Below are positions 16,102 to 45,408 of a stretch of DNA of 64,000 nt, one piece after another (the first letter of the stretch is position 1; each line of letters starts with the position of its first letter). The translations under genes were made by a program, and so were the position numbers. The notes beneath the pieces are model-generated. The model saw only the letters and a list, made by a program, of their open reading frames with translations, had not been told where the DNA came from and made no database searches. Source of the stretch: Acinetobacter sp. ANC 4910. Its GTDB lineage: Bacteria; Pseudomonadota; Gammaproteobacteria; Pseudomonadales; Moraxellaceae. The DNA lies in NCBI RefSeq assembly GCF_004331035.1, contig NZ_SJNT01000004.1, forward strand, positions 124,001-188,000. The letters are read 5' to 3'.

Positions 16102-16621
16102 TTAATAATAAACGATTAATACGTGAATTTTCATGTTATACTTCATTTATTAATCTACCCAGCTACATTCTTTTCGAATCTGGTCTTTCTATAACCAGTT
16201 TCTTGCTGACTTAATTCCTAGATTAAATAACTTGATATCTCCTCGGACACTAAAACGCTGTCCTGATCAAGTTTGCTTTACTTACATTGAGCAAATCTAT
16301 CTCTAAAGTATGATCTTGCCCAAAGATTCTGATTGGCGATATTCCGCTACTCTAAAAAGTCAGATCTTCACATGAAGAATGCTGTTTTGTTGACTTGCGC
16401 TATGCTTGTATACAACAACATGAAATGTGCTCAGCTTTGATGAATTTGAGTGAGTTATAAGTCATTCATCAGATCTTATTTGACTGAATCATGAGTCTAA
16501 TATGCACTTAACAATGCATAGACAGCTTCGTCAATTGGTTCAACTGTATATAAAGCATCTAGCGAACAAGGCAATCCAGAGGGTAGATGAAATCTATTTT
16601 GTTTCGTTAAATGAGGTGCTT
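16102..16621. other. Gap between phrB and the small lipoprotein gene
   Basis: About 520 bases with no gene that I can support on either strand. No repeat, tRNA or mobile element was recognised. The promoter for the small lipoprotein should lie at its right end. Confidence 0.5.
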
Positions 16622-42399: not shown

Positions 42400-42504
42400 A
42401 ATCACTTTTTCTGATAAGTTCAATTAAATATATTCAGTTTATCGAGAATGATTTTAGATTAGAATAGCAAGCTGTTCTAATTTGATAATTTATTGAGACC
42501 TTTC

Positions 42505-43284
42505 ATGGCTGCTTTTAACGTCGAAAAGATTACTCACGTACACCACTGGAATGACACGCTCTTCAGTTTTAAGACGACACGTGACACCGCATTACGTTTT
42601 AAAAATGGTCAATTTGTGATGATTGGTCTTGAAGTCAATGGTAAGCCTCTTATGCGTGCTTACTCTATTGCAAGTGCAAATTATGAAGAAGAACTTGAGT
42701 TTTTCTCAATTAAAGTACCCGATGGCCCTTTAACTTCTATTTTACAACAAGTCAAAGTTGGCGATGAGATTTTAGTTTCTAAAAAGCCAACAGGTACCTT
42801 GGTTCTTGATGACTTAAACCCTGGTAAGAATTTATATCTTCTTTCTTCAGGTACAGGTCTTGCACCATTCTTGTCGACTATTCGTGACCCTGAAACGTAC
42901 GAACGCTTTGAAAAAGTCATTGTTGTACATGGTACACGCTTCATTTCTGAATTGGCTTACCAAGACCTTATTCTGAATGAGTTACCAAACAACGAATTTT
43001 TTGAAGAACTTGGCATTAAAGACAAGTTAGTGTACTACCCAACAGTTACCCGTGAAGAATATCCAAACCAAGGGCGTGTTACCACAGTCATTGAAACTGG
43101 CGAAATTTTTGAAAAAATTGGTTTACCCCGTTTCAACCCAGAAACTGACCGTGCAATGCTTTGTGGTAGCCCAGCATTCCTTGATGATGTCGTTGCACTT
43201 TTAGATCAACATGGTCTTAAAGAATCACCACGTATGGGTGTTCTTGGCGATTATGTGATTGAACGCGCATTTGTTGAGAAATAA
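42505..43284 (+). CDS. fpr: Ferredoxin-NADP+ reductase
   Basis: A 259-residue FAD enzyme that exchanges electrons between NADPH and ferredoxin or flavodoxin, part of oxidative-stress and Fe-S maintenance. FAD motif Arg-Ala-Tyr-Ser-Ile-Ala-Ser near residue 52, NADP site Gly-Thr-Gly-Leu-Ala-Pro-Phe near 117, Val-His-Gly-Thr-Arg, Met-Leu-Cys-Gly-Ser-Pro near 220, and a C-terminal Glu-Arg-Ala-Phe-Val-Glu-Lys tail typical of bacterial FPRs. The frame is open up to a TTG at 42493, but the ATG gives the conserved Met-Ala-Ala-Phe-Asn-Val. A strong terminator follows. Confidence 0.94.
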   Translation: MAAFNVEKITHVHHWNDTLFSFKTTRDTALRFKNGQFVMIGLEVNGKPLMRAYSIASANYEEELEFFSIKVPDGPLTSILQQVKVGDEILVSKKPTGTLVLDDLNPGKNLYLLSSGTGLAPFLSTIRDPETYERFEKVIVVHGTRFISELAYQDLILNELPNNEFFEELGIKDKLVYYPTVTREEYPNQGRVTTVIETGEIFEKIGLPRFNPETDRAMLCGSPAFLDDVVALLDQHGLKESPRMGVLGDYVIERAFVEK

Positions 43285-43422: not shown

Positions 43423-43478
43423 TTGTCGAGATCAACAAAAGCACCTATAATTCGAATCAAGAACAGACAGGTCTGTCT
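43423..43478 (+). promoter_or_regulatory. Promoter with overlapping palindromic operator
   Basis: TTGTCG (43423-43428) and TATAAT (43446-43451) are 17 bases apart, a near-ideal sigma-70 promoter. Just past the expected start point lies AGACAG-GT-CTGTCT (43465-43478), a perfect 6-2-6 palindrome of the kind bound by TetR-family dimers. No coding gene follows within 250 bases on this strand; the promoter points into the structured RNA candidate. Confidence 0.7.
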
Positions 43479-43695
43479 ATTTCTGTATGTGACTTTGTTG
43501 AGCTGATGTAATTTATAATCAATCCAGAGGGTACTTTATAATAATTATAATAAACGATATAAGAAAGGAGATTTTAAGCTCCTCTAAAACATTAATATTT
43601 TAGACAGCTTCTGCTCGGGGCCGACTAAAATATTAATATCAGGGAACTATCAGCGAGGCGTGAATACCATTTATGGTATTCACGCTTTTTTATTT
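43458..43695 (+). ncRNA. Candidate structured small RNA
   Basis: Between fpr and the convergent TetR gene there is no open frame, but there is strong structure. A small hairpin (AGGAG/CTCCT near 43566-43583) comes first. A 13-bp perfect stem follows (ATTAATATTTTAG at 43591-43603 with CTAAAATATTAAT at 43625-43637) closing a 21-base loop that contains CTCGGGGCC. After it come the single-stranded TCAGGGAACTATCAGC and a strong intrinsic terminator. A good promoter lies at 43423-43451, and a second AT-rich TATAAT at about 43537-43555 could give a shorter transcript of about 140 bases. The exact 5' end is inferred. Confidence 0.6.
43658..43692 (+). terminator. Terminator of the small RNA
   Basis: GCGTGAATACCA and TGGTATTCACGC form a 12-bp stem with a 4- to 5-base loop, followed by six T on the plus strand. 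The minus strand has no T-run here, so it serves the plus-strand transcript. Confidence 0.88.
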
Positions 43696-43742: not shown

Positions 43743-44309
43743 TTAGACTTCCATAAGCTCAAGCTGAATCAGCTTATAGACTCGTTTCCAATACTCATCA
43801 ATTTTAACTAAGTTCTTGTCCATTTGAGCTTGTATGGTCATACCATCCAAAATACTTGCCAATAGGCTAGCAAGCTGAAAAGACTGGGCGATCCCTAATT
43901 TTTCCAGTGCAACCCGGATACGTTCAGTCAACCACTCTTTGTATTCCATTGCAGGTTGCATGGTTGAAGGATAAACCTTGGAAACCTCCTCAACTGCTTT
44001 TTGAAACATACATCCATTAAAATCGTCCATCTGAAACCAAGCGTGGTACCAGTAAAAAATGGTTTTAATATGGTCTAAATATTCTTCAGCCCGACACTGA
44101 GCAATTGCTGCATCTAAAGATTCTTGTAAGTTCATATTTCTACGGTGTAAGCACTCTTCAATTAGTTTCGCTTTAGAAGGAAAATATTTATAGAATGTCA
44201 TTTTAGCGACACCCGATTCACTAATAATTCGATCAATCCCAATCGAGTTATAGCTATAAGAATTGAAAAGATGAAGCGCAGTACTAATAATGTCGTCTTT
44301 CTTGGACAT
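43743..44309 (-). CDS. TetR-family transcriptional regulator
   Basis: A 188-residue repressor. The N-terminal helix-turn-helix runs Lys-Asp-Asp-Ile-Ile-Ser-Thr-Ala-Leu-His-Leu-Phe, Ile-Gly-Ile-Asp-Arg-Ile-Ile, Ser-Gly-Val-Ala-Lys-Met-Thr-Phe-Tyr-Lys-Tyr-Phe-Pro-Ser-Lys. The rest is the helical ligand-binding domain, ending in an amphipathic helix. It is divergent from the diiron-protein gene, with an inverted repeat between (44436-44455), and convergent with the small RNA candidate, whose promoter carries a TetR-like palindrome. The ligand is unknown. Confidence 0.93.
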   Translation of the reverse strand: MSKKDDIISTALHLFNSYSYNSIGIDRIISESGVAKMTFYKYFPSKAKLIEECLHRRNMNLQESLDAAIAQCRAEEYLDHIKTIFYWYHAWFQMDDFNGCMFQKAVEEVSKVYPSTMQPAMEYKEWLTERIRVALEKLGIAQSFQLASLLASILDGMTIQAQMDKNLVKIDEYWKRVYKLIQLELMEV

Positions 44310-44568: not shown

Positions 44569-45408
44569 ATGAGTACACTTGCTTTTACACAATCAGAAAA
44601 TGCGCGATTGGAAGCTTTAAATTTTATTCGGCATTCGGTGGAACCATCTCTATGGCATCGGCATATCGAGCAAGTGAACACACTCAAACAGTACAGTCTT
44701 CAACATCCATTATTTCAACAAAAAATTCTAGAACGCTTACATAACCAAGCGCTTTCACTTGAGCAGCTCAAGTTAATTCATATCAATTATTTCGCCGCAA
44801 TTGTCAAAGTCTTTACCGATGCATTAAGCATGCTCATTTACCAAGCATGCAAATTAGAACAGCACCCAAACATTCATAGGCAGCAGCGTGTTCATGCGAA
44901 AGCCTATGCACGTTACTTATTGTCATTGAATCTGATTGATGAGTTAGGTTTTAACACCTATCAATTACCACTTAGTTCTCCAAGTAAATCGCATTTGGTT
45001 TATTTCATGGAATTACTTCAAGCTTTAGAGATTGATCCATTTAATGAACAAGAAGTATGTAACGAAGCATGCGAACTTGATCAGTTTATTCAATCACATT
45101 TAGACTCATACGAGCACTTGTTATTAATTTTAGCCTGTGCAGAATTACAAGTGATTAAATATAGCGAAGCATTACGCATCAATTTAGAGAAATATGATTC
45201 GCGCTTAACCGAAGGTTATTATGATTGCCACGGTATTGTTGATCATACAAATAGATTAGCCAATGATGACAATCATGAAGATGACATTTGGTCACTCTTC
45301 ACCCAAAGTTACCAAGACATTCAAAGCAACGAATACCAGACTGTGGTACAGGAATATCTAGATCTTTGGGCAAAGTTTTGGAACAAAATGCATCTACTCA
45401 GTACATAA
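44569..45408 (+). CDS. Haem-oxygenase-like diiron (HDO) family protein
   Basis: A 279-residue all-helical protein resembling the 'iron-containing redox enzyme' group. The probable ligand pattern is His in Leu-Ile-His-Ile-Asn-Tyr near residue 75, Glu in Cys-Ala-Glu-Leu-Gln-Val-Ile-Lys-Tyr near 193, and the C-terminal Asp-His-Thr-Asn-Arg-Leu-Ala-Asn-Asp-Asp-Asn-His-Glu-Asp-Asp near 225-240. Such enzymes use O2 to hydroxylate, desaturate or cleave substrates. No substrate can be named. It is followed by the DUF2071 gene on the same strand (107 bases apart), and the TetR gene is divergent. Confidence 0.6.
   Translation: MSTLAFTQSENARLEALNFIRHSVEPSLWHRHIEQVNTLKQYSLQHPLFQQKILERLHNQALSLEQLKLIHINYFAAIVKVFTDALSMLIYQACKLEQHPNIHRQQRVHAKAYARYLLSLNLIDELGFNTYQLPLSSPSKSHLVYFMELLQALEIDPFNEQEVCNEACELDQFIQSHLDSYEHLLLILACAELQVIKYSEALRINLEKYDSRLTEGYYDCHGIVDHTNRLANDDNHEDDIWSLFTQSYQDIQSNEYQTVVQEYLDLWAKFWNKMHLLST

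Follow-up and report, generated by a model that had tools for sequence, protein, structure and literature searches.

A TetR-family gene and a convergent structured RNA recur together in Acinetobacter and may form a one-component switch

Downstream of a ferredoxin-NADP reductase-like gene in Acinetobacter sp. ANC 4910 (G000; genome size, 3.48 Mb), a palindrome at the putative start of a structured RNA lies near a tetR gene in the opposite orientation, which raises the question of whether the TetR protein controls a gene whose product is an RNA. We analyzed the locus within a 64,000-nucleotide stretch of DNA (the window) and in related genomes. Read 5′ to 3′, it consists of the fpr-like gene (positions 42493 to 43284) with its own terminator, a promoter, the palindrome, the structured RNA, the RNA's terminator, and the convergent tetR. 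On the plus strand, a −35 box (TTGTCG, 43423 to 43428) and a −10 box (TATAAT, 43446 to 43451) are separated by 17 nucleotides, the spacing given in the original prediction, and make up a sigma-70-type promoter (43423 to 43451). Because promoter-like matches in the window were no more frequent than expected by chance (2 versus 2.1), the promoter call rests on conservation: the −10 box reads TATAAT in 58 of the 70 related loci described below and differs from it at a single position in the remaining 12.

The candidate noncoding RNA of about 237 nucleotides (43458 to 43694, plus strand), delimited from its fold and its relatives, would start about 7 nucleotides past the −10 box. The textbook intrinsic terminator anticipated at its end is predicted at 43655 to 43688 on the plus strand, followed by a T-run to 43694, and a terminator ends the RNA in all 70 related loci; the window contains two terminator-like sites, the second belonging to the upstream gene, versus 0.2 expected. 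The RNA had been thought to lack a coding frame, and the window's list of open reading frames (ORFs) includes none of at least 40 amino acids overlapping it on either strand. ORFs within the related RNAs are shorter than 50 codons and vary in length among loci, with no conserved reading frame. Comparison with Rfam, a check proposed with the prediction, placed the RNA in no known family: the window gave no match at the gathering score (E ≤ 5 yielded only four matches, all far below gathering scores), and six related loci gave none above it.

The predicted fold of the RNA has a free energy of −62.7 kcal/mol (z = −4.55), and none of 200 shuffled sequences reached a value as low. It includes a 5′ hairpin, the terminator, and the 13-bp stem with a 21-nucleotide loop that had been picked out from the sequence, a central helix at 43591 to 43637 (plus strand; arms 43591 to 43603 and 43625 to 43637). 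Predicted folds also contain a small hairpin, GGAG...CTCC (43567 to 43582, plus strand), after a purine-rich AAGAAA stretch. Part of the 16-base motif described as unpaired is base-paired in the predicted fold.

To place the locus among its relatives, we compared searches at the DNA and protein levels. A DNA search gave matches in 17 of 175 genomes of the genus, several of them confined to the −10 box and the palindrome, and a pattern combining the palindrome with CAGAGGG matched 24 of 175. Presence or absence scored by BLAST-type searches thus misses RNAs that evolve this fast. A search with the TetR protein (E ≤ 1e-30) found matches in 82 of 175 Acinetobacter genomes; in 79 of them the identity reached 58% or more. 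We assembled 150 loci from 30 initial loci, 40 chosen stretches, and the best 80 of 187 relatives in a named species-genome collection, all 80 of which were Acinetobacter. Removal of copies left 107 loci, 72 with a TetR at least 58% identical and 35 with a lower identity. The hosts of orthologous TetRs include A. tandoii, A. kyonggiensis, A. bouvetii, A. baylyi, A. ursingii, A. junii, A. haemolyticus, A. venetianus, A. nosocomialis, A. seifertii, A. pittii, and A. calcoaceticus.

We scored the RNA as linked to tetR when the 900 nucleotides beyond the tetR 3′ end held a −10-like box and, after it, an ACAG/CTGT palindrome. By this rule, 70 of the 72 nonredundant loci with a TetR at least 58% identical carried the unit, as did none of the 35 loci with a more distant TetR and 55 of 1,440 dinucleotide-shuffled flanks of the 72 loci. 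The two exceptions were L147, at a contig end with a 177-nucleotide flank, and L075, in which the operator has been lost; among the 35 negatives, L121 and L122 do have an ACAG/CTGT palindrome on that side of tetR, preceding a neighboring gene, but the rule does not count it. The RNA is convergent with tetR in 70 of 70 loci. The association proposed earlier of an RNA, an operator, and a neighboring TetR is supported by the 70-of-72 versus 0-of-35 linkage, by the terminators, and by the covariation presented below. The linkage is kept across gene neighborhoods: the unit is on the fpr side in the window, whereas in A. nosocomialis and A. baylyi the genes on that side resemble, by eye, those for ArsR and SstT. 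Separately, in other species, paralogous tetR genes (49 to 53% identity) occur downstream of an fpr-like gene without the RNA and operator (L105 to L108, among other loci).

Conservation of the stem in relatives had been proposed as a further check, and covariation was found. In an alignment of 11 diverged relatives (A3), RNAalifold predicted 42 pairs, 22 of them with two-sided changes. The central helix, at the equivalent place, had two-sided changes at 13 of 13 pairs, and the helix equivalent to the 43567-to-43582 hairpin had them at 5 of 6. In this alignment 93.1% of cells were paired, versus a column-shuffle mean of 82.4% (0 of 500 shuffles as high) and 31 to 45% in slid controls, for a structure derived from the same alignment, which favors it. 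Two-sided changes were found at 4 of 31 pairs in clade C (25 of 26 RNAs) and at just 2 of 40 pairs in the window's own subgroup (11 RNAs), where the helix sequence is nearly fixed. The RNA sets omit L076, whose terminator the search expression missed, and alignments A2/A4, A5, and A6 omit the near-copies L054, L085, and L177. L117, which stands alone, and four ursingii-type RNAs lie outside the alignments; A4 and A6 were aligned without folding.

The relatives share the 5′ palindrome, AGAGGG, and a CAG...GCGYG element that continues into the terminator. AGAGGG, present in 54 of 70 relatives, corresponds in the window to the conserved motif CCAGAGGGTA (43524 to 43533, plus strand) and is missing in 15 of 15 members of the clade with A. 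nosocomialis, A. pittii, A. calcoaceticus, and A. baylyi. It is the best seed candidate, and its accessibility is doubtful because the consensus fold of the window subgroup pairs part of it with a downstream CUCC-type stretch. The CAG...GCGYG element was found in 60 of 70 relatives by a search expression; the remaining 10 have the form TCAGCA(A/C)AGCGCG before the terminator (by eye). In the window, the TCAGCGAGGCGTGA element leads into the intrinsic terminator (43650 to 43694, plus strand).

The proposed TetR operator (43463 to 43478, unstranded), identified with the help of the relatives, comprises two overlapping palindromes and would form the 5′ hairpin of the RNA if transcribed. The palindrome named in the original prediction, AGACAG-GT-CTGTCT (43465 to 43478), is indeed perfect, lies at the putative start site, and is the sole exact match in the genome and the window, but the better-conserved register, ACAGAC-AG-GTCTGT (43463 to 43476), is shifted by 2 nucleotides. 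The shifted register is kept in more relatives; L060 to L064, for example, read ...GTCTGTATA, which breaks the outer arms of AGACAG-GT-CTGTCT. An ACAGA-N4-TCTGT palindrome is found in 65 of 70 loci, with variants in 5, and the operator starts 8 to 12 nucleotides after the −10 box in 69 of 70. Operators are of type ACAGACARGTCTGT in 39 loci (24 in clade A and 15 in clade B), GACAGAANNATCTGTC in 26 (clade C), CATACAGACCTGTATG-like in 4, and AGACAGATCTGTCT in 1, and types ACAGACARGTCTGT and GACAGAANNATCTGTC share the ACAGA-N4-TCTGT core.

In 15 window-clade genomes chosen from the 24 matched by the palindrome-plus-CAGAGGG pattern, the perfect operator ACAGACNNGTCTGT occurs once per genome in 14, where it sits at the sRNA promoter, and twice in one (G018). 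The second copy in G018 is intergenic and runs into a T-run, and it is therefore probably a terminator. Places with one mismatch numbered 38 versus 84 matches of a reversed control, summed over the 15 genomes, and in each genome did not exceed the control matches. Many TetR-family repressors, though not all, regulate their own genes through the same operator. Here such autoregulation appears to be absent because the upstream regions of tetR lack the site: a credible operator was found in 1 of 72 Acinetobacter loci (L075), and two further upstream matches (L074 and L162) lack the operator core. L075 has an orthologous tetR and an RNA-like region, has lost the start-site palindrome, and carries a ATACAGGTCTGT site upstream of tetR; a rewiring to autoregulation is possible in this case.

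More distant TetR relatives (39 to 44% identity) provided a second view of the palindrome. It occurs upstream of tetR itself in L121 (by eye), L122, L224, L225, and L227 and beside tetR, before another gene, in L218, L219, L221, and L223; L218, L219, L221, L223, L224, and L227 belong to other Moraxellaceae genera. By a 6-of-7 rule, it was found in 7 of 10 distant stretches and not in L220, L222, or L226. Because distant TetRs carry it at their own or neighboring promoters, the palindrome is tied to this TetR family and, judging from these sequences, is probably a DNA operator and not only an RNA hairpin. From these sites and the one perfect copy per genome, the operator can most likely be assigned to this TetR family, with the RNA as its visible regulon. 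Apart from L220, which is ambiguous, no clear terminated RNA was seen in the distant-TetR flanks inspected (those other than L226 and L227). L220, from another Moraxellaceae genus, has an imperfect palindrome (by eye) beside tetR and a terminator-like hairpin about 300 nucleotides on, and may be an RNA locus outside Acinetobacter. In L121, L122, and L225, the distant tetR (40 to 43%), with an ACAG/CTGT palindrome near it, adjoins a gene that we take to resemble YqcI/YcgG.

The convergent TetR gene described in the original prediction corresponds to an ORF at 43743 to 44309 on the minus strand, encoding the proposed repressor of 188 amino acids. Its product matches PF00440 (TetR_N, the N-terminal helix-turn-helix [HTH]) with 43.9 bits versus a cutoff of 24 (2e-11). 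The AlphaFold model (pLDDT 91.9) has as its nearest folds TetR1 (8z6d), TetR2-DNA (9llq), SCO4454 (3g7r), and QacR (1jt0), and this fold suggests that a ligand controls the protein. In many loci a 279-amino-acid gene (44569 to 45408 in the window) is divergent from tetR; it gave no Pfam, NCBIfam, or PADLOC match, and similar ORFs were seen by eye in L141, L224, and L225, other genera included.

From sequence comparisons, we consider it likely that the locus works as a one-component switch, with TetR repressing a dedicated sRNA that probably acts in trans. The module would pair a TetR-family repressor with a convergent, dedicated noncoding sRNA. A TetR dimer, or a pair of dimers, would bind the palindrome over the RNA start and block the sRNA promoter; a small-molecule ligand would release TetR, and the RNA would be made up to its intrinsic terminator. 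It would then act, most likely in trans on mRNAs and probably with Hfq. Repression of the sRNA by the adjoining TetR is suggested by the linkage, and we infer that the RNA is transcribed in the window species and base-pairs with targets. The repressor probably acts via the RNA and not an enzyme or pump because the repressor-RNA pair recurs in many Acinetobacter species.

Alternatively, the palindrome might serve solely as a protective hairpin at the 5′ end of the RNA, with TetR a bystander. It falls inside the stretch predicted to be transcribed, where it could fold into a hairpin of 5 to 7 bp, but its presence at the promoters of distant tetR or neighboring genes, whose inspected flanks hold no clear RNA, argues otherwise, as does the presence of the RNA-operator unit beside the TetR ortholog (70 of 72 loci) and not beside paralogs (0 of 35); we regard a hairpin-only role as unlikely. 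The operator could also be that of another regulator, linked to this TetR by hitchhiking. This is quite improbable, given that the linkage persists when the gene neighborhood differs and that the motif also occurs at the promoters of related tetR genes themselves.

Other explanations concern what the RNA does. It might work in cis, with tetR itself being tuned by convergent transcription or by read-through into its 3′ end. The invariant convergence and the closeness of tetR downstream would suit such an arrangement. On the other hand, the RNA ends in a terminator in every linked locus, L068 keeps the RNA despite about 240 nucleotides of extra sequence between it and tetR, and the conserved internal stems and motifs would be unneeded for read-through. 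A cis role is therefore also unlikely. Sequestration of CsrA/RsmA has in its favor the GGA motifs of the window RNA and the two or three in each clade C RNA. Across 69 RNAs (L076 omitted), though, GGA counts range from 0 to 3; 10 of the 23 RNAs in clade A, 9 of the 15 in clade B, and 2 of the 4 ursingii-type RNAs have no GGA at all. These counts are too low for a CsrB/RsmZ-type RNA, a class with numerous GGA motifs in its loops that we rejected, and sequestration is very improbable.

An inducible sRNA, probably acting in trans, is the reading that the promoter, the repressor site at the start, the terminated structured RNA, and the purine-rich stretches fit. The pattern TACCCTCTG-N(0-30)-ATG returned 51 rows in 10 genomes versus 15 for the reversed pattern (3.4-fold), with some rows overlapping one another and two (G018 and G107) being the RNA genes themselves. 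No convincing conserved target gene was seen by eye among these matches in the 10 genomes; a TACCCTCTGGACCCATG string recurs among them in 4 genomes. As a possible target we considered 16571 to 16584 in the window, a 14-nucleotide match to RNA segment CAATCCAGAGGGTA upstream of a small lipoprotein-like ORF. Of 10 relatives searched, six have a matching stretch and not one of these preserves the complement, which was therefore rejected as a coincidence.

The TetR-sRNA module is, on the comparative evidence, real and conserved, and it is undescribed as far as our literature searches reach: the search listings contained no description of it. Most TetR repressors are known from a pump or enzyme encoded next to them; here the sole visible target is a neighboring noncoding RNA. 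It thus seems that RNA-level regulation serves as the readout of a small molecule in a genus with important opportunists. The body of the RNA changes from clade to clade and the repressor and operator stay recognizable, so the module may serve as a rewirable ligand-to-RNA switch. We give about even chances to the broader view of a widespread Acinetobacter one-component module with the RNA as its sole visible output, combining a single-operator TetR sensor, a fast-diverging sRNA, and a 5′ hairpin that is the transcribed operator.

A published list of sRNAs of A. baumannii AB5075 gives coordinates for them, including ABUWs040 (art37), a 153-nucleotide transcript seen by RNA-seq (PMC5320573). We used RNase P RNA (rnpB), tmRNA, and signal recognition particle RNA (ffs) as map anchors for comparison with AB5075. 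In G060, the homologue of our RNA is about 502 kb away from ffs and 852 kb away from rnpB; the corresponding distances are 488 and 1,027 kb in G006. In G150 it is 535 kb from ffs, and the rearranged rnpB side does not fit. From the coordinates in that list, ABUWs040 (153 nucleotides, fitting strand) lies 516 kb from ffs and 848 kb from rnpB; ABUWs039 (90 nucleotides), at 385 and 979 kb, was also considered and fits less well. By map position, strand, and size, ABUWs040 may thus be the AB5075 homologue, and the module predicts a regulator for a transcript that is perhaps ABUWs040. PMC5320573, relying on BLAST, scores ABUWs040 as missing from A. baylyi, yet this species carries a diverged unit next to the orthologous tetR (L077/L141). 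The main texts of PMC11472050 and PMC12802169 make no mention of ABUWs054, 060, 063, 064, or 070. PMC9802203 deals with the sRNA SrvS and with switching regulators of the TetR type, which in the passages concerned are not tied to the present pair. A literature search for the name ABUWs040 gave, among the matches listed, only the paper that reports the list.

QacR/NemR-type TetR repressors act at palindromic operators located at the start site. The present locus resembles them in the HTH family, in the predicted fold of the regulator, and in the overlapping palindromes just past the −10 box. It differs in its apparent target, which is an RNA gene convergent with tetR, and in the lack of an operator at the tetR promoter. 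As for the RNA, it shares with Aar-like trans-acting sRNAs, as described in parts of PMC11472050 and PMC12802169, its own promoter, a terminator with a U-tail, a purine-rich AAGAA stretch, and a noncoding character. Unlike the Aar-like sRNAs as presented there, the tetR-linked Acinetobacter RNA is without an Rfam match and has what appears to be a dedicated repressor encoded next to it.
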